This document shows, in pieces, positions 36,689 through 46,193 of a stretch of 64,000 nucleotides of DNA. Source of the stretch: Egicoccus sp. AB-alg2 (GTDB lineage: Bacteria > Actinomycetota > Nitriliruptoria > Nitriliruptorales > Nitriliruptoraceae); assembly GCF_041821065.1 (NCBI RefSeq), contig NZ_JBGUAX010000001.1, positions 124,001-188,000 of the forward strand, read 5' to 3'. Under the pieces are notes generated by a model that worked only from the letters and a program-made list of their open reading frames with translations, was not told where the DNA came from and did not search any database. Within the stretch, counting starts at the first letter, position 1. The number at the start of each line of letters is the position of its first letter. Made by a program: the position numbers and the translations under genes.

Positions 36689-37381
36689 TCACGACTCCAC
36701 GGCCTGCCGCAGCGCGTCGTCACGCAGCCGGAAGAAGCGCCGGCGCGGGCGCGTGCTGTCCAGCCCGGCCACCTCGAGGTCGCCTGCCTCGATCGGCCGG
36801 CCGGCCGCCCGCGTGAGTGCCTCGACGCAGGCGCGGACCGCGGCGTCGCGGTCCAGCCCCTCGCGCCAGGTCTGTTCGAGTGACTGCACGATCGGTTCGG
36901 TCTCGCCGCCGATGACCACGAAGCGGTGTTCGTCGACGATCGAGCCGTCGTAGAGGATGTGGTACAGCTCGAGCCCGCCGCCGTGGTCGGCGTGGCCGAC
37001 CTCGGCGATCAGCAGTTCCACCTCGTAGGGCTTGGCCTCGCCCCCCATGAAGATGGCACCCAGCGCCTGCGAGTAGGCGTTGGCCAGCGCCTTGGCGGTG
37101 ACGTCCTCGCGGGCGTACTGGTAGCCCTTCACGTCGGCCAGCCGGATACCCGCGACCCGCATCGACTCGAACTCGTTGTAACGGCCGACGGCCGCGAACC
37201 CGATGCGGTCGTAGATCTCCGAGGTCTTGTGCAGCGACCGCGACGGGTTCTCGCTGACGAACACCACGCCGTCGGCGTACTCGGCGGCGACCAGGGCACG
37301 GCCCCGCGCGATGCCCTTCCGGGCGTACTCGGCCCGGTCCTTCATGAACTGTTCGGGTGCGACGTAGAACGGGGTTGCCAC
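36689..37381 (-). CDS. prcA: Proteasome subunit alpha PrcA
   Basis: Non-catalytic outer ring of the 20S core, 230 aa. Family landmarks: '[19 protein letters not shown]', '[19 protein letters not shown]', '[18 protein letters not shown]' and '[19 protein letters not shown]'. The N-terminus, which forms the gate for the ARC ATPase, is intact. GTG at 37381, 27 bases after the prcB stop. The C-terminus lacks a long acidic tail. Confidence 0.96.
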
Positions 37382-37408
37382 GGCGGCGGCCTTCCTGCGG
37401 CGGGTGGG

Positions 37409-38245
37409 TCAGGCGGAGGGCTGGCGGTTGCGTCGACGCTCGACCGTCGCCTCCACGTGGGCGGCGACCTGCTCGTCGTCGAGCTCCCGGTACCCGGCGC
37501 CGTCGATCTCCGCCACGATCGGGTAGATGCGTCGGATCAGGTCCGGACCACCGGTCGCGCTGTCCTCCTCGGCCGCGTCGAACAGCGCCTCGACGGCGAT
37601 CCCGGCCGCGGTGTCCAGGTCGGCCTCGGGCTCGACGAGCCGCTTCAGGGTCGCGCGCGCGGCGAGCGACCCGGAACCGGTGGCCGCGTAGGTCGTGGCC
37701 CGGTAGCGCCCGCCGACGGGGTCGTACTCGAAGATGCGCCCGGCGCCGCTGCGCGGGTCGAAGCCGGCGAACAGCGGCACGACGACCAGACCCTGCATCG
37801 CCAGTGGCAGGTGGGCGCGGACGAGTCCGGCCAGCTTGTTGGACTTGCCCTCCAGCGACAGCGGCTCGCCCTCGACCTTCTCGTAGTGCTCCAGCTCCGT
37901 CGCGAAGATGCGGGCCAGCTCCATCGCCGGGCCGGCCGCGCCGCTGATGCCCACCGCCGACCAGTCGTCGGCCGGGAAGATCTTGCGCATGTCGCCACGG
38001 GAGATGAGGTTGCCGGCCGTGGCACGCCGGTCACCGGCGATGACGACCCCGTGGGCGGACAGCACCGCGAGCACCGTGGTGCCCTCGACCAGCCGCTCGC
38101 GCAGCGACTCGTGCATCGGCGCGCCGCTCAGGACCGGCGGGACCGCGTCGGGCGCCTGGCGGCGCAACGTCTCGAAGAACGAGCTGCCTCGGGCGTCGAA
38201 CGGCGAGGGCAGTCCCGCGAGCAACTCGTCGGCTCGGAAGGTCAA
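37409..38245 (-). CDS. prcB: Proteasome subunit beta PrcB
   Basis: Catalytic inner ring of the 20S core, 278 aa, an N-terminal-nucleophile threonine hydrolase. A 55-residue propeptide precedes the processing site 'VEG|TTVLAVLSAHGVVIAGDR', leaving Thr56 as the nucleophile; the Asp/Lys pair is expected in 'GDRRATAG' and 'MRKIFPAD'. TTG at 38245 has GGAGAGGA 7 bases upstream. Its usual upstream partner pup is displaced by an antisense kinase gene, so it must have its own promoter (a TACGCT lies 28 bases ahead). Confidence 0.95.
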   Translation of the reverse strand: MTFRADELLAGLPSPFDARGSSFFETLRRQAPDAVPPVLSGAPMHESLRERLVEGTTVLAVLSAHGVVIAGDRRATAGNLISRGDMRKIFPADDWSAVGISGAAGPAMELARIFATELEHYEKVEGEPLSLEGKSNKLAGLVRAHLPLAMQGLVVVPLFAGFDPRSGAGRIFEYDPVGGRYRATTYAATGSGSLAARATLKRLVEPEADLDTAAGIAVEALFDAAEEDSATGGPDLIRRIYPIVAEIDGAGYRELDDEQVAAHVEATVERRRNRQPSA

Positions 38246-38273
38246 CGGTGGATCCTCTCCTGGACCTGGCGCA

Positions 38274-38279
38274 GCGTAG
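38274..38279 (-). promoter_or_regulatory. Possible -10 of the prcB operon
   Basis: TACGCT on the minus strand, giving a transcript start about 22 bases before the prcB TTG. A promoter is needed here because the pup operon cannot read through the opposing kinase gene. Confidence 0.35.
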
Positions 38280-38368
38280 GCCCCGCCACCCCGAAACGCC
38301 TCGGACCTGCGTCGGTCGCCGATCACCCGGCCTCGCCCGGGTCATACCGCTCACGAGGTGGCGGGCTC

Positions 38369-38374
38369 TATGCT
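38369..38374 (+). promoter_or_regulatory. Possible -10 of the histidine kinase gene
   Basis: TATGCT on the plus strand, 61 bases before the kinase GTG. A -35 box is not clear. It lies back to back with the presumed prcB promoter. Confidence 0.35.
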
Positions 38375-38435
38375 CCGCCGGAGGTGCCGGTCGACTGACC
38401 GAACGGTGCACGACGGCGAGGCCGGGGGCTGACAG

Positions 38436-40037
38436 GTGGGTCCGCAGCGCGACGGGACGGCCGGGTTCGGCCCGCTCGGGCTCGACCGTCCGCGCGAGAC
38501 CCTGCGGCAGGGCCTGCTGCTGGGCACGGCCGGTGCGGCGGCGCTCGCCTCGGTCGCGTTCTTCGCGGCCGCACCGGCTCTGCCCGGACTGGCGGAGGCC
38601 GTGCCCGCCATCTTCACCTTCGCCGTGGTGGCCGCGGTCGGCTCGGCCTGGCTGCTGCGCGTCCACGACGAGATGGACCCGGACCCGGCGCTTCGCTGGG
38701 CGGCGGCCGGCTACGCCGTCAGCGGCATGGCGATGCTGTTGGCCGTGATCTCGTTTCCCACCATCTCCCCCACCGGCGGGCCGCTGCGGTCGGGGCCGTC
38801 CCAGGCGGCGGCGCTGTACCTGACCTGGCACGGGGTCGTGGCCATCATGACGCTGCTGGGCACCTTCCGGACGGCGCCCCGCCGGGCGCTGCGGCGGGGC
38901 GCCGTCGTCGTCGCGCTCGCGCTGGTCGTGCTGGCGGCCGCGGACCTCTCGCTGCCCAGCCTCGTGCACCCGGACGGCGACTACACCGCGGCGTTCCGCG
39001 GCTTCCTCACCCTCACGGCCGCGCTGTCGGCCGTCGCCACGTGGCGCTGGGTCATCGTCGCGGGCCGGGCGCCGACCTGGCCACGCGCGTGGGTTGCGGT
39101 CAGCCTGCTGCTGCTCACCTGGGACCTGGTGCTCTACGGGTTCGCCGAGCGGCGCCTGTCCGTTGCCTGGTGGGCGAGCCTGTCCAGCCGCATCGCCGGC
39201 TTCGTGGTCCTCGCCCTCGGACTGCTCGTCGGCGTGCGGACCGTGTTCCGGTCGCTGAACGGCTACGCGGAGCGGCTCACCCGGCTGGCCGCCGAGCGTG
39301 ACGCCGCGGCGCGTGACCTGGCCACCGCCAACCAGGAACTGCAGGCCTTCGCCCACGTCGTCGCACACGACCTGCGCTCGCCCCTGACCGGCGCCAGCGG
39401 CTACGTCGACCTCGCCCGCGCCGCCCCCGAGGAGCTGTCAGTTGACGTCGTCGACCTGCTCGAGCGCGCCAGCGTCCAGCACCGTCGCATGAGCCGGCTG
39501 ATCACGGACCTGCTCGAGTACGCCGAGGTGTCCCACGGCGACGTGCAGCGGGCACCGGTCGACCTGGCCGCCCTCGGCCACGAGGTCGTCCGTGAGCGCA
39601 GCGCCGAGTCGACCGTGACCGTCGACGGCCTGCCGAACGTGACCGGCGACCCGATGCGGCTGCGGCAGCTGCTCGACAACCTCATCGGCAACGCGCTCAA
39701 GTACGTCCCGCCGGGCGTCGACCCGCACGTGCGGGTCTGGGCGGAGACGACCGACGGTCAGGTGACCGTGCACGTCGACGACAACGGCATCGGGATCGAC
39801 CCCGCCCGGGCCGAGGAGATCTTCCAGCCGTTCGTGCGGACCAACGACGCGCGGGCCGGCTATCCGGGCACCGGGATCGGTCTGGCGATCTGCCAGCGGG
39901 TGGTCGAGCAGCACGACGGCTCGATCCGGGCCGTGCCGCGGCCCAGCGGCGGCACGCGCTTCACCTTCACGCTGCCCGCGGGCGAGGGGCCGGCCCTCCG
40001 CACGCCACCGGTGCGCGCCCCGCAGGACGCCGGCTGA
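38436..40037 (+). CDS. Membrane sensor histidine kinase (orphan)
   Basis: HWE/HisKA-type kinase of 533 aa with about seven or eight hydrophobic helices in residues 20-275 that form a membrane sensor module. A short linker helix is followed by the dimerisation domain with phospho-acceptor His311 ('VVAHDLRSPLTGASGYVD'), then HATPase_c with N-box 'QLLDNLIGNALKYVPPG', G1 'VDDNGIGIDP', F box and 'GTGIGLAICQRVVEQHDG'. GTG at 38436. No response regulator lies nearby. It is the only plus-strand gene of the locus, between pup and prcB. Confidence 0.93.
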   Translation: MGPQRDGTAGFGPLGLDRPRETLRQGLLLGTAGAAALASVAFFAAAPALPGLAEAVPAIFTFAVVAAVGSAWLLRVHDEMDPDPALRWAAAGYAVSGMAMLLAVISFPTISPTGGPLRSGPSQAAALYLTWHGVVAIMTLLGTFRTAPRRALRRGAVVVALALVVLAAADLSLPSLVHPDGDYTAAFRGFLTLTAALSAVATWRWVIVAGRAPTWPRAWVAVSLLLLTWDLVLYGFAERRLSVAWWASLSSRIAGFVVLALGLLVGVRTVFRSLNGYAERLTRLAAERDAAARDLATANQELQAFAHVVAHDLRSPLTGASGYVDLARAAPEELSVDVVDLLERASVQHRRMSRLITDLLEYAEVSHGDVQRAPVDLAALGHEVVRERSAESTVTVDGLPNVTGDPMRLRQLLDNLIGNALKYVPPGVDPHVRVWAETTDGQVTVHVDDNGIGIDPARAEEIFQPFVRTNDARAGYPGTGIGLAICQRVVEQHDGSIRAVPRPSGGTRFTFTLPAGEGPALRTPPVRAPQDAG

Positions 40038-40101
40038 GGAACGGGAAGGACGCTCGGCCAGGGAGCCGGTCGCAACGTGTCCTGGGACCAACCCGTCGGG
40101 C

Positions 40102-40302
40102 CTACTGGCCGCCCTTCTGGACGTAGCCGCGGACGAACTCCTCGGCGTTCTCCTCCAGGACGTCGTCGATCTCGTCGAGGAGCTCGTCGACGTCGTCGAG
40201 GAGGTCCTTCGTGGCCTCGTCGGTCTCGGTCGCGGTGGCCTCGACCTCCTCGACCTCCTCCTGGGTGCTGCCGCCCTTGCGGACCTGCCCACCGTCGCTC
40301 AT
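40102..40302 (-). CDS. pup: Prokaryotic ubiquitin-like protein Pup
   Basis: Disordered protein tag, 66 aa, joined to lysines and read by ARC. The N-terminus is polar ('SDGGQVRKGGSTQEEVEEVE'), the middle very acidic, and the C-terminal half has the helix-forming 'LLDDVDELLDEIDDVLEE' that binds the ARC coiled coil. It ends EEFVRGYVQKGGQ: the terminal GGQ must be deamidated by Dop to GGE before ligation. ATG at 40302. Dop ends 50 bases upstream, so the two share a transcript; prcB is separated by the kinase gene. Confidence 0.96.
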   Translation of the reverse strand: MSDGGQVRKGGSTQEEVEEVEATATETDEATKDLLDDVDELLDEIDDVLEENAEEFVRGYVQKGGQ

Positions 40303-40351
40303 GACCGTCCTCCCGTGAGCGCGAACCGGCAGCGTACCGCCGCCCGCCTGC

Positions 40352-41839
40352 TCAGTTCGTCAGTGCCTCGAGCAGTTCGGCCGCGTCCGCCACCTGGTCG
40401 AGCAGGTCCCCGACGTGCTCGCGGGTCCCGCGACCGGGCTCCATCATCGGCACGCGCTGCAGTGCCTCGCGGCCCACGTCGAAGATCAGCGAGTCCCACC
40501 CGGCCGCGACGACCTGATCCGGGAACCGGCGCAGGCACTCGCCCCGGAACCAGGCCCGCGTGTCGGCTGGCGGCGTGGACGTCGCGGCGCGGACCTCGGC
40601 CTCGGACACCAGCCGCTCGACGCGGCCACGGGCGGCCAGGCGCTGGTACAGGCCCTTGTCCCGGCGCACGTCGTGGTACTGCAGGTCGACCATCTTGAGC
40701 CGGTCGTGGTCCCAGTCCAACCCGTGCCGGGTCCGGAACTGCTCGAGCAGTTCCAGCTTGGTGGCCCAGTCGACCTGGCCCGACAGCTTGCGCGGGTCCT
40801 GCTCGGCGGTGGTGAGCAGTGCCTCCCACCGGTCCAGGACGTCCTGCGCGGACGGGTCGGCGCGCCCCTGTTCCTTGACGTAGCGCGCCGCCGCCTCGAA
40901 GTAGTGCCACTGGATCTCCAGCGGGGTCACGCGCCGGCCGTCGTCGGTCGGCAGGGTGATCCGGCCGGTCAGGTCGTGGCTGATCGCGTGGAAGGCCTGC
41001 ACCGGTCGGTGGATCGTCGGCGGATCGGGGAGCGCGTCGTCCTCGATGAGGTCGAGGACCAGCAGCATCGTGCCGACCTTCAGGAAGGTCGCGACCTCGC
41101 ACAGGTTGGCGTCACCGTTGATCACGTGCAGCCGGCGGTAGCGCTCCGGGTCGGCGTGGGGCTCGTCGCGCGTGTTCATCAGCGGGCGCTTGAGGGTGGT
41201 CTCCAGCCCGACCTCGACCTCGAAGAAGTCGGCGCGCTGCGACAGCTGGAACGGCACGTCCTCGCCGCGGAACTCGGTGCCGAGCCGTCCGGAGCCGACG
41301 TACAGCAGCCGGCTGAGGAAGAACGGCTGCAATTGGCGGGTCAGCCGCCCGAACGGGACCTCGCGTGGCACGAGGTAGTTCTCGTGGGTGCCGTAGGCGG
41401 CGCCCTTGCCGTCGGTGTTGTTCTTGTGGACCAGGACCCGGTGCCCCTCGGGCAGGGTCAGCGCGGCCAGCCGGGCGGCGTCCTCGAGGATCCGCTCCCC
41501 CGCCTTGTCCCACACCACCAGGTCGCGGGCGTTGGAGCACTCCGGTGTCGCGTACTCGGGGTGGGCGTGGTCGACGTAGAAGCGCGCCCCGTTGGTCAGG
41601 ACCGTGTTGGCCAGCCCGAGTTCGTCGTCCGTGACCGGCTCGTGCGGATCGGGGACCTCGTAGCCACGCGCGTCGCGCATGGGGTGCTCGTCGGTGTGGT
41701 CCCAGCGGACCTCGCGGTCGCCGGCACCGCGGTAGGCGCCGACCACCAGCGACGAGGCCAACACGGGGTTGACCTCGCGTGGACCGTCGACCGCGATGCC
41801 GTACTCGGTCTCCACGCCGACGAATTTCGGGGTCGCCAC
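40352..41839 (-). CDS. dop: Pup deamidase/depupylase Dop
   Basis: ATP-dependent enzyme converting Pup GGQ to GGE and removing Pup from substrates, 495 aa. Motifs: 'FVGVETEYGIAVDGP', '[19 protein letters not shown]' with the nucleophilic Asp in 'YVDHAHPEY', 'HKNNTDGKGAAYGTHENYLV' and '[20 protein letters not shown]', and the C-terminal domain. The longer Dop-specific loop region after DHAH and the extra ~40 residues distinguish it from PafA. GTG at 41839. Lies between arc and pup. Confidence 0.96.
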   Translation of the reverse strand: MATPKFVGVETEYGIAVDGPREVNPVLASSLVVGAYRGAGDREVRWDHTDEHPMRDARGYEVPDPHEPVTDDELGLANTVLTNGARFYVDHAHPEYATPECSNARDLVVWDKAGERILEDAARLAALTLPEGHRVLVHKNNTDGKGAAYGTHENYLVPREVPFGRLTRQLQPFFLSRLLYVGSGRLGTEFRGEDVPFQLSQRADFFEVEVGLETTLKRPLMNTRDEPHADPERYRRLHVINGDANLCEVATFLKVGTMLLVLDLIEDDALPDPPTIHRPVQAFHAISHDLTGRITLPTDDGRRVTPLEIQWHYFEAAARYVKEQGRADPSAQDVLDRWEALLTTAEQDPRKLSGQVDWATKLELLEQFRTRHGLDWDHDRLKMVDLQYHDVRRDKGLYQRLAARGRVERLVSEAEVRAATSTPPADTRAWFRGECLRRFPDQVVAAGWDSLIFDVGREALQRVPMMEPGRGTREHVGDLLDQVADAAELLEALTN

Positions 41840-41892
41840 GGGCTCGCCATGCCTCTCGTCGTCGTATCCGGGGCGCTGCAGGCCGCTGCGAC

Positions 41893-43704
41893 CTAGAGGT
41901 ACTGCCCGGGGTTGAGGTTCTCGATCGCCCGGCCGGGAGCGGCGTCGCCGCCGCTGATGAGCGTGCGCACGTACACGATGCGCTCGCCCTTCTTGCCCGA
42001 GATCCGCGCCCAGTCGTCCGGGTTGGTGGTGTTGGGCAGGTCCTCGTTCTCGCGGAACTCGTCGCGGATCGCGCGCAACAGGTCGTCGGTCGACAACCCC
42101 TTGGGCCCGCTGTCGAGGACCCGCTTGATCGCGTACTTCTTCGCCCGTGCGACCACGTTCTCGATCATCGCCCCCGAGTTGAAGTCCTTGAAGTACAGGA
42201 TCTCCTTCTCGCCGTTGGCGTAGGTGACCTCGAGGAACTCGTTGTCGCGGTCGGCGGCGTACATCTTGTCGACGGTGCGCGCGATCATCGCCTGGATGGC
42301 CCGCTCGCCGTCGCCGTGGGTGGCCAGCTCCTCGGGGTGCAGCGGCAGCCGCGGGTGCAGGTAGATCCCGAAGATCTCGCGGGCGGCGTCGGCGTCGGGC
42401 CGGTCGACCTTGATCTTCACGTCGAGGCGGCCGGGCCGCAGGATCGCGGGGTCGATCATGTCCTCGCGGTTGGACGCGCCGATGACCACGACGTCCTTGA
42501 GGCTCTCCACCCCGTCGATCTCCGCCAGCAGCTGGGGGACGATGGTGGTCTCCACGTCCGAGGACACCCCCGAACCGCGTGTGCGGAACAGCGACTCCAT
42601 CTCGTCGAAGAACACGATGACCGGGAAGCCCTCGGCCGACTTCTCCCGCGCGCGCTGGAAGATCAGCCGGATCTGCCGCTCGGTCTCGCCGACGTACTTG
42701 TTGAGCAGCTCGGGGCCCTTGACGTTGAGGAAGTAGCTCCGGACGTCGTCGCGGCCGGTCTTCTCCGCCACCCGCTGGGCCAGCGAGTTGGCGACCGCCT
42801 TGGCGATCATCGTCTTGCCGCAGCCGGGCGGGCCGTACAGCAGGATGCCCTTGGGCGCCCGCAACTCGTGCTCGACGAACAGCTCGGCGTGCAGGTAGGG
42901 CAGCTCGACGGCGTCGCGGATGGCCTCGACCTGCTCCTTGAGGCCGCCGATCTGCTCGTAGGAGATGTCGGGGACCTGCTCGAGGACGAGCTGCTCGACC
43001 TCGGCCTTGGGGACGCGCTCGACCGCGGTGTTGGAGCGGGTGTCGACCAGCAGCGAGTCGCCGGCCTTCAGCGGCAGCTCCTGCAGCGGCTCGGCCAGGT
43101 GGATGACCCGCTCGTCGTCGGTGTGGCCGAGCACGACCGCGCGCCCGTCGCCGAGCAGCTCGGCGATGATCATCAGCTCGCCGCGGTTCTCGAACTCGCC
43201 GACGGCGACGACGTTCATGGACTCGTTGAGCAGGACCTCCTGGCCCGCTCGCAGCGCGTCCACCTCGATCTCCGGGCCGACGCCGACCTCGAGCTTGCGG
43301 CCCGACACCATGACGGTGACCGTGCCGGTCTCCGCGTCGGCGCCCAGGAAGGTCGCGTAGGACTGCGGCGGGGCGGCCAGCCGCTCGACCTCCTCGCGCA
43401 TCTGGGCGAGCTGGTCGCGCGCGGCGCGCAGGGTCTCCGTCAGCTTGTCGTTCTGGGCCAGCGCGGCCTGCAGCTTGCCCTTGGTCTCCAGTAGGCGTTC
43501 CTCGAGCACGCGGATCCGCGCGGGCGCCGACTCCAGCCGACGCCGCAGCAGGTCGACCTCCTCGCGGAGGAACTTCAGCTCCGCGGCCAGCTCGTCCGGG
43601 TCCTGGTGCTCACCCGGGCGGACGGGGTGCGGTTCGCGGGCACGGCCCGGGCCGCGGGGGTCGTCGGAGGGGCCGTGCAGGGGGCGGTCCGGACGCTGGT
43701 TCAC
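41893..43704 (-). CDS. arc: Proteasome-activating AAA ATPase ARC/Mpa
   Basis: Hexameric unfoldase that recognises Pup and threads targets into the 20S core, 603 aa. N-terminal coiled coil (about residues 35-95: '[20 protein letters not shown]'), two OB-fold domains, then AAA with Walker A '[20 protein letters not shown]', Walker B '[16 protein letters not shown]' and sensor/Arg-finger residues downstream. It ends NPGQYL, the GQYL tail that docks into PrcA. GTG at 43704 has TAGGAGG 6 bases upstream. First gene of the arc-dop-pup transcript. Confidence 0.96.
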
Positions 43705-43882
43705 GTGGCCTCCTACCGCTTCGGGGAACCCTCTGGGCGAGGCCCCGGGCGGGTGCACCGAGGCGCTCCCACCCCGACGGCCTCTGAGCCGGCGAGTGTA
43801 GGGCACATCATGACGGCTTCGGCCCGGGCCCTCCCGGAACCGTCAGCAAATGGTGTGGTCCACGGGCGCAGCCCGCTCGGGG

Positions 43883-44857
43883 TCAATCCGCGTCGGTGTC
43901 GGCCCCGTCGTCGGCCGGCCCGGCGCCGGCCGGCCCGTCCTCGGCGGCAGCGTCCGACCACACCAGGCCCGGTCCGAGATCGGCCTTGCGTCGCGGCGGC
44001 GGGGGGCCACCTTCCGCCCGCGCCGGAACGCGGCGCGCCGTGGTCAGGAACGCGGTGTGGGCGACCATGCGGTGCGCCGGGCGCACCGCCAGCCCGTCGA
44101 CGTCCCAGGGGCGCACCAGCGTCTCCGTGGTCCGCACGTCGGTGAAGCGGCCGTCGGCCCACAGCGCCTCGGTGAACCGCATCACCTGCGGCACGGTCGG
44201 GGTGTAGGCGAGCACGATCGCCCCGGTCGGGAGCGCCTCGGCGGCGCCGGGCACCAGCAGCCACGGCTCGAGCAGGTCCAGCACCAGCCGGTGCGGACGC
44301 ACGCCGAGGTCGGCGAGACCGTCGACGAGGTCGGCGTCCACCAGCGCCCAGTTGTCCGGGACGCCACCGAGGAAGCGCGCGACGTTGCGGCGGGCATGGA
44401 CCGCGTGGTCCTCGCGGCGCTCGAACGAGACGACCCGCCCCTCGCTGCCGACCGCGGCCAGCAGTGCCAGCGTGAGCGCGCCGGAGCCGGCGCCGGCCTC
44501 CACGACCGTGCAACCGGGCCGGATGTCGGCGGCAGCGACGATCGCGGCCTGGTCCTTGGGGTAGACCACCTGCGCCCCGCGCTTCATCTTGAGCACGTAG
44601 TCCTCGCGCGTCGGGCGCAGGGCCACCACCTCCATGTTGCGGTTGGTGCGCACGGCGGTGCCCTCGGCACGGCCGATGAGCTGATCGTGGGCGACCAGGC
44701 CGGCGTGGCTGTGCCACTCGGCACCGGCCGCGAGCTCGACGAGGTAGCGCCGCCCGCGGCGGTCGATCAGCACCACCAGTTCGCCGGCGGCCAGCACGGT
44801 GTCGGTGCCGGGCAGCACGGGAGCGGCGGACAGGGAGGTGGTGTCGGTGTCGGTCAT
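43883..44857 (-). CDS. trmI: tRNA (adenine-58-N1)-methyltransferase TrmI
   Basis: SAM enzyme making m1A58 in the tRNA T loop, 324 aa. SAM site 'CTVVEAGAGSGALTLALLAA' and 'VVSFERREDHAVHARRN'; target-base motif region 'LDLLEPW'; N-terminal SH3-like domain with 'LVVLIDRRGRRYLVEL'. A Pro/Ala/Asp-rich tail follows residue 270. ATG at 44857, 8 bases past the ttuA stop. TrmI and TtuA act on neighbouring T-loop bases in Thermus, so the operon is meaningful. Confidence 0.93.
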   Translation of the reverse strand: MTDTDTTSLSAAPVLPGTDTVLAAGELVVLIDRRGRRYLVELAAGAEWHSHAGLVAHDQLIGRAEGTAVRTNRNMEVVALRPTREDYVLKMKRGAQVVYPKDQAAIVAAADIRPGCTVVEAGAGSGALTLALLAAVGSEGRVVSFERREDHAVHARRNVARFLGGVPDNWALVDADLVDGLADLGVRPHRLVLDLLEPWLLVPGAAEALPTGAIVLAYTPTVPQVMRFTEALWADGRFTDVRTTETLVRPWDVDGLAVRPAHRMVAHTAFLTTARRVPARAEGGPPPPRRKADLGPGLVWSDAAAEDGPAGAGPADDGADTDAD

Positions 44858-44864
44858 GCGGGCG

Positions 44865-46109
44865 TCATCCGGAGCTCTGGTCGGTGCCGGCGGCGGCTGC
44901 CGCGGCGGCGGTCGGGGCCGTACCGGCGGCAGGCGCGCGGGCGGCGGTCGGAGCGGCGCCGGCGCCGGCCAGCACGGGCAGCGCGGTCAGGATCCGCTCG
45001 CGCTGGCGGCAGAAGGCGCAGGTCTCGCCGCTGGTCGGCATTCCACACCGGTCACAGGCGCCGATCGGCGTGCCGTCGTCGCGCGCCTCCTCGGCGAAGC
45101 GGTCGTGGCGGTCGAGGAAGCCGAACAGGAACTGGGCCTTGGCGCCCGGCGCGGTGCGCTCCAGGGCGTTGAGCATCTCCTTGTGCTCCTGGCCGGTGTT
45201 GCCGTCGACCAGCGGGCACTCCTCGACGACGTAGTCGATGCCGCGCACGACGCAGTAGGCGGCCATCTCGCGCTCGGAGAGGCGGTACAGCGGCTTGCAC
45301 TTGCGGACCTGGTTCGTGCCGCTGGCGGGCAGCACCGGGCGCTGGCGGGCCAGGAAGTCGTCGTGCCAGCGCAGCAGGTTGCCCAGCAGGGTCGCGGCCT
45401 CGTCGTCGAGGTTGTGGCCGGTCACCACCGCGTCGTAGCCGTGGTCGACCGCGACCTTGTTGAAGACGTAGCGCTTGCTCAGGCCGCAGACACCGCAGGC
45501 CGATCGGGTGGTCGACGAGGCGCCCGACGGCGTCGTGTACCCGTAGGCCTCGCCCAGGTCCACGACGTGCAGGCGCGCGCCCCGGGCGGCGGCGAAGTCC
45601 TCGCAGATCCGCTGGCTGCGCCGGGAGTAGCCGCCGATGCCCAGGCCGATGTACAGCCCGTCGACCCGGTAGCCGAGCTCCAGGAGGATGTCCCACAGCG
45701 CGAGCGAGTCCTTGCCGCCGGACACCGCGACCAGCAACCGGTCGGCGTAGGAGAACATCCGCTCGCGGGCGCGGCTGGCCTGCGGATGGTCGATCGCCTT
45801 GCGGACCTGGTTCTGGACGTGGTCGACGAAGTGGGCCGGGCACCAGGCGGCACGGTGGCGCGGTTCCTCGATGACCGCGGCGCCGCGGCACACCGCACAG
45901 CGTGGCCCGCCGGCACCGCCCGAGATCACGGGACGGATCTCCACCTCGGCGTCGGCGTGGAGCTCGTGGTCGGCCGTGACCAGCCCGGCGTCGTGGATGA
46001 CGAGCACCGTGGTCGGGTTGAGATCGAGGCGGTCGAGCAGCTCACCGACGGTGAGCGGCCCCTCGACCTGCTCGACGCGGTCGGGATTGCGCAGGCTGAC
46101 GCGCACCAC
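44865..46109 (-). CDS. ttuA: Fused ubiquitin-fold (TtuB/ThiS-like) - tRNA thiolase TtuA
   Basis: Residues 1-65 look like a MoaD/ThiS/TtuB sulfur carrier: 'EGPLTVGELLDRLDLNPTTV', then 'VEIRPVISGG' ending in a Gly-Gly (64-65; another GG at 67-68). The rest is TtuA-type: zinc site C71-x2-C74-x15-C90-x2-H93, PP-loop SGGKDS (130-135), Fe-S cysteines 'ACGVCGLSKRY' (205, 208) and 'VRKCKPLYRL', and a C-terminal zinc site 'CDRCGMP...CAFC'. It should thiolate T54/U54 of tRNA. GTG at 46109 has AGGAGG upstream. An Ala/Thr-rich tail follows. The fusion is one open frame. Confidence 0.88.
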   Translation of the reverse strand: MVRVSLRNPDRVEQVEGPLTVGELLDRLDLNPTTVLVIHDAGLVTADHELHADAEVEIRPVISGGAGGPRCAVCRGAAVIEEPRHRAAWCPAHFVDHVQNQVRKAIDHPQASRARERMFSYADRLLVAVSGGKDSLALWDILLELGYRVDGLYIGLGIGGYSRRSQRICEDFAAARGARLHVVDLGEAYGYTTPSGASSTTRSACGVCGLSKRYVFNKVAVDHGYDAVVTGHNLDDEAATLLGNLLRWHDDFLARQRPVLPASGTNQVRKCKPLYRLSEREMAAYCVVRGIDYVVEECPLVDGNTGQEHKEMLNALERTAPGAKAQFLFGFLDRHDRFAEEARDDGTPIGACDRCGMPTSGETCAFCRQRERILTALPVLAGAGAAPTAARAPAAGTAPTAAAAAAAGTDQSSG

Positions 46110-46193
46110 GGATGGGACCTCCTGTCCTGCTGGTCGACACCGGAGCAGATGGCTCGGGCGTCTGCACGGTCCGGTGGCGGACCGCGGCCGGCC

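Follow-up and report, generated by a model that had tools for sequence, protein, structure and literature searches.

On the minus strand of the window, the 64,000-nucleotide stretch of DNA from Egicoccus sp. AB-alg2 analyzed here (contig NZ_JBGUAX010000001.1, positions 124,001 to 188,000), positions 46109 to 44865 hold a genuine ttuB-ttuA fusion gene, in which a ubiquitin-fold sulfur carrier is joined in frame to the tRNA thiolase TtuA. The original prediction of such a fusion, made from the DNA letters of the window, was borne out by sequence, fold, and comparative evidence. We consider it likely that the product is cut after its internal Gly-Gly by a JAMM-type peptidase, that an E1 enzyme thiocarboxylates the freed TtuB, and that TtuA thiolates U54 of tRNA beside the m1A58 introduced by TrmI.

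The gene starts with GTG, encodes 414 amino acids, and ends in a stop codon at 44867-44865. A ribosome-binding site, AGGAGG (46118-46123, minus strand), lies 8 nt 5' of the start codon; no sigma-70 promoter or terminator pattern was found near the gene, and the open frame on the plus strand of 44865-46109 was rejected as spurious. Residues 1-65 (45915-46109) make up the TtuB-type beta-grasp domain, which closes with Gly64-Gly65 (45915-45920), the predicted cleavage site lying after Gly65; no relative, fused or split, departs from Ser63-Gly-Gly. A linker, AGGPR (residues 66-70; 45900-45914), leads into the predicted TtuA tRNA U54 2-thiolase domain (residues 71-372; 44994-45899), and the protein ends in an Ala-rich, low-complexity tail (residues 382-414; 44868-44966) that is unconserved and of low pLDDT. 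Chance or assembly error as the source of the fusion is ruled out by the 46 fused orthologues in other genomes. Release of TtuB by frameshifting was also rejected: the alternative frame stops at a TGA (45926-45928) just before SGG, so that a frameshift product cannot have the GG end.

Identification of the N-terminal domain as TtuB draws on both sequence and fold. Residues 10-65 match the Pfam ThiS family (PF02597) at 23.0 bits, narrowly over the cutoff of 22.5; residues 3-65 match TtuB in the PDB (5ztb_E, E=1e-4; 5gha_E was also matched); and the domain scores 84-86 bits against a profile built solely from free-standing TtuBs. The AlphaFold model of residues 1-68 (pLDDT 89) has TtuB 5ztb_E as its best PDB match in Foldseek (TM 0.84, E 8e-6), followed by MTH1743, with ThiS and MoaD ranking lower. 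These results agree with the earlier reading of residues 1-65 as a TtuB/ThiS-type beta-grasp domain ending in Gly-Gly, for which structure prediction had been proposed as a check; the fold predicted is a beta-grasp, with TtuB nearest. The Gly-Gly is kept in all relatives but is internal in the gene product, and a free C-terminus for thiocarboxylation thus needs cleavage. In the AlphaFold model of the fusion protein both domains are confident, and residues 62-66, which bear SGG, are the sole poorly ordered stretch between them.

Residues 71-372 match TtuA 5gha_A (E=1e-81), and the fold match of this domain is 5ztb_B (Foldseek, E 6e-32). The score against NF049949 is 265 bits, below the strict cutoff of 450 for that model, whereas the match to NcsA, which acts on U34, is far weaker (122 bits). 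The zinc motif C71-x2-C74-x15-C90-x2-H93 aligns with C3/C6/C22/H25 of the Thermus protein with the identical spacing that had been claimed for it, and a PP-loop (SGGKDS, residues 130-135), Fe-S ligands (C205/C208/C298), and a second zinc site (C352/C355/C364/C367) are present. The ligands and the PP-loop are invariant across 14 diverse fused genes, except that position 93 is His or Cys.

The gene for TrmI, the tRNA m1A58 methyltransferase, lies 7 nt downstream of the fusion gene on the same strand (43883-44857). It is a conserved neighbor, found beside 62 of the 71 loci with room for it (9/9 fused, 53/62 split), and because m1A58 speeds TtuA (PMC6418473), the adjacency fits U54 as the target. 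Farther along the minus strand are genes for a proteasome-associated ATPase (ARC/Mpa; 41893-43806) and a Dop/PafA-type enzyme (40352-41839), both conserved neighbors by synteny and named by recognition of the translated open reading frame, and for Pup, named from its sequence (40102-40302; 66 aa, ending GGQ). The span 36689-43806 has the make-up usual for Pup-proteasome clusters of actinobacteria, with ARC, Dop, Pup, PrcB, and PrcA encoded on the strand of ttuBA-trmI; pup and prcB are separated by an oppositely oriented gene (38436-40037) that resembles those for sensor histidine kinases. Both trmI and the Pup locus adjoin the fusion gene, as had been noted, but the Pup locus is not special to the fusion; its proteasome genes are common to split and fused forms, and we draw no functional link from them.

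Related genes were sampled from 61 relatives and from 396 genomes across the phylum, and separately from a set of 80 named loci. In the former we read 46 fused genes, all actinobacterial, and 37 loci of the split form, with a short ttuB gene immediately upstream of ttuA. The named set comprises 10 fused, 69 split, and 1 truncated loci; the fused ones belong to Nitriliruptoria/Nitriliruptoraceae and other Actinomycetota, and split ones occur also in Nitrospirota, Bacillota, Chloroflexota, and Rokubacteria. On a tree of the TtuA portion only (83 rows), fused and split forms switch, in either direction, at least seven times, with at least four switches forced by well-supported branches. Three fused genes retain in frame the ATG of the old ttuA start, and these group with split genes. 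Judged from these gene sequences, switching between the two forms is recurrent and widespread, and the fusion is not unique to Egicoccus sp. AB-alg2; the survey of relatives that had been suggested thus returned both forms, alternating repeatedly. Stop codons flagged in fused relatives were end-of-gene stops, the frame running through the junction, and two loci taken as fused (in G089 and G124) proved on reading to be split, with a carrier ending exactly at GG. One genome bin (G097) holds a fused copy (L074) and a split copy (L101) from separate parts of the tree, and with 5% contamination the bin may be mixed. No description of a TtuB-TtuA fusion turned up in a search of non-subscription papers, and one may exist elsewhere.

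Split carriers, too, commonly extend beyond Gly-Gly. Between 1 and 20 residues, commonly two, follow GG in 31 of the 37 sampled split carriers and in 52 of 69 in the named set, where carriers from other phyla end exactly at GG in 9 of 13 cases. The first residue past GG is Ala or Ser in 45 of 46 fused genes and in 26 of the 31 tailed split carriers. Split ttuB and ttuA often overlap by 4 bases (e.g., L143, L150), an arrangement that forces a short tail on the carrier, and translational coupling of the two genes may have driven the evolution of tails. That most split carriers are tailed suggests that carriers are made as precursors, of which the fusion is the extreme case, and that some maturation peptidase must act on them. 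The genome to which the window belongs has two further carriers with tails, of AAA and of AA, each after AGG. The same genome also encodes a MoaD-MoaE fusion (L001:1483-2382; contig C7), in which a linker of GDHGGA/GDHGGT repeats begins straight after an internal PPVAGG.

The end of the carrier domain appears still to be under selection. SGG closes the domain in all 46 fused genes, and since all four glycine codons (GGC, GGT, GGG, and GGA) are used at both Gly positions, what is kept is the amino acids. The residue after GG is Ala in 41, Ser in 4, and Gln in 1 of these genes, and the linker, 4-11 residues long, is variable in sequence past that first residue. Glu57, Arg59, and SGG are invariant in fused and split sets alike. 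Relative to TtuA, the carrier diverges at an equal rate in fused and split pairs, and relaxed selection on the fused domain was rejected in the absence of any rate increase. The invariance of SGG and the equal rate, both read from aligned genes, argue against the domain being a relic or serving for docking only.

We propose that the product of the fusion gene would be a precursor in which TtuB forms the N-terminal domain of its own client, TtuA. Cutting after Gly65, in the flexible junction between ISGG and the following Ala, would fall to a peptidase, most probably the JAMM enzyme of the genome; the sole E1-rhodanese protein would adenylate the freed TtuB and thiocarboxylate it at Gly65; and the C-terminus of TtuB-COSH would dock on the [4Fe-4S] cluster of TtuA, which would pass the sulfur to U54 of tRNA, with thiolation aided by m1A58 introduced by the neighboring TrmI. 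Synthesis as one chain would provide carrier and enzyme in equal amounts. The fusion may have arisen several times over, through loss of the stop codon and of the frame break that separated two overlapping genes, and it would have been tolerated because the carriers were already precursors with residues past GG. Thermus TtuB binds the unique iron of the TtuA cluster through its free C-terminus (PMC7138817), a contact that an internal glycine cannot make. The analysis establishes the architecture, fold, conservation, and recurrence of the fusion and the presence of E1 and JAMM genes; the cleavage, the enzyme behind it, the thiocarboxylation, U54 as the site modified, and the direction in which the fused and split forms arose are inferred. 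The original prediction had offered three outcomes for the buried Gly-Gly: that the domain is cut free, that a second carrier exists, or that the domain has become a docking part. The first is the best supported, by the invariance of SGG, the lack of a rise in rate, the tailed split orthologues, the JAMM motif, and the precedents discussed below.

The genome has a single JAMM peptidase (L064:1515-2000; Prok-JAB, 70 bits) with the full E/HxHx7Sx2D motif intact (E plus HSHTHTQAYPSATD). In the phylum sample a JAMM protein over the family cutoff is encoded by 29/30 genomes with a fused gene and 28/29 with a tailed carrier, compared with 240/396 overall, figures uncorrected for kinship; JAMM acts on other carriers as well, so this co-occurrence is unspecific, and relatedness confounds it too. 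In Thermus, deletion of the JAMM gene leads to abnormal TtuB conjugates and roughly halves thiouridine (PMC3980101). It is unlikely that the precursor is instead cut by a non-JAMM peptidase or by TtuA itself. Two fused and well-assembled genomes, G004 (98% complete) and G069 (94%), have no JAMM over the cutoff, and the JAMM of the window's genome, used as a query against G004 and eight other genomes in a search run without a positive control, found no match. The carriers of G004 are all tailed and so should need some processing enzyme, be it a JAMM that the assembly lacks or a different peptidase. Against a non-JAMM agent stand the presence of JAMM in 29/30 fused genomes of the phylum sample and its standing as the known enzyme for fusions of this kind (PMC8832034). 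In G004 the tails occur on all four carriers including ThiS, and two of them begin with Cys (QGG-CT and AGG-CGAAR; L210, L215, L222).

A rather unlikely extension makes the fusion a regulated switch: uncut TtuB-TtuA would be stored inactive, and JAMM, possibly tied to the Pup-proteasome system, would set both U54 thiolation and TtuB conjugation. In a stronger form of this idea, TtuA would cut itself where no JAMM is found.

We regard it as quite improbable that the fused domain is no carrier but an attached docking, regulatory, or folding module, with TtuA taking sulfur from sulfide or from another carrier. Thermus TtuA can take sulfur from sulfide in vitro with TtuB left out (PMC11323500), TtuB is reported absent from Thermotoga maritima and Pyrococcus horikoshii (PMC7138817), and the model of two well-folded domains on a flexible joint would suit such a module. 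A domain used only for docking, however, would not need its last Gly-Gly, docking alone would not hold SGG invariant in 46 of 46 genes, and repeated origins should have left decayed tails; nor does the domain evolve faster than free-standing TtuB.

That a separate second carrier feeds TtuA and leaves the fused domain redundant is very improbable. The genome does contain five other ThiS/MoaD-like genes (C2, C3, C7, C8, and C12), and carriers can be promiscuous, those of T. kodakarensis being redundant and BexX borrowing carriers (PMC11323500). Against the free-TtuB profile, however, four of the five score at most 10.8 bits and the C2 gene 25, compared with 86 for the fused domain, and the neighborhood or fusion partner of the C3 and C7 carriers points to thiamine and molybdopterin, respectively. 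Redundancy would moreover let the fused SGG decay, and decay is not seen. The genome search that had been recommended for a separate ttuB and an E1 thus found, with the TtuB profile, no further TtuB-like gene (the five others scoring at most 25 bits) and one E1, a ThiF-rhodanese protein (G000:C1:482890-483597). The C2 carrier (L209, G000:C2:456592-456750) ends exactly at PMAGG, is missed by Pfam ThiS, and adjoins an acetamidase/formamidase-like gene.

Production of free TtuA from internal translation starts, which would make the fused product less important, is extremely improbable: the window has a GTG (Val61) with a purine-rich stretch upstream, and three relatives have an in-frame ATG just 5' of the TtuA zinc site, but 43 of the 46 fused genes lack any start codon in frame from GG to the first zinc cysteine, which rules such a start out in them, the Val61 codon is GTG in 21 of 46, equal to the background frequency, and an internal start would not free TtuB with a Gly65 end.

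The closest precedents for cleavage of a precursor come from molybdopterin synthesis. MoaX, a MoaD-MoaE fusion of Mycobacterium tuberculosis, must be cut at Gly82-Ser83 for activity (PMC4326299), and DRJAMM cuts the MoaD-MoaE fusion of Deinococcus (PMC8832034). In MoaX and the Deinococcus fusion (DR2607), as here, the carrier lies N-terminal to its client and has an internal Gly-Gly, followed in MoaX by Ser; here, however, the client is the Fe-S tRNA thiolase TtuA rather than molybdopterin synthase, there are many switches between fused and split forms, and cleavage, established for MoaX and DR2607, is predicted. By analogy, TtuB-TtuA would be a MoaX-style carrier-client fusion, now in tRNA thiolation, with a JAMM present and SGG followed by a small residue. 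The likeness to the TtuA/TtuB/TtuC system of Thermus thermophilus extends to matches of both domains, the kept catalytic ligands of TtuA, and the presence of E1 and JAMM genes, but TtuB and TtuA are separate proteins there (PMC7138817) and one chain here, and the E1 here has a rhodanese domain, whereas TtuC and TtuD of Thermus are given as two distinct factors (PMC6418473). Fusions of ThiS to ThiG likewise join a carrier to a sulfur-accepting partner (PMC1779556), although in the thiamine pathway and with another client fold.

This gene would place tRNA thiolation among the pathways that make a ubiquitin-like sulfur carrier in one chain with its client. In eukaryotic ubiquitin-ribosomal protein fusions, too, an N-terminal ubiquitin-fold domain is cut off after Gly-Gly, although the partner there is not a client of the freed domain. 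The carriers sampled here form a natural series, from an exact GG end through short and long tails to full fusion, that would show how precursors and a peptidase make fusions tolerable, and that is relevant to the question of why cells make ubiquitin itself solely in fused form. The fusion protein would also be a concrete candidate for a physiological substrate of the poorly understood bacterial JAMM peptidases.
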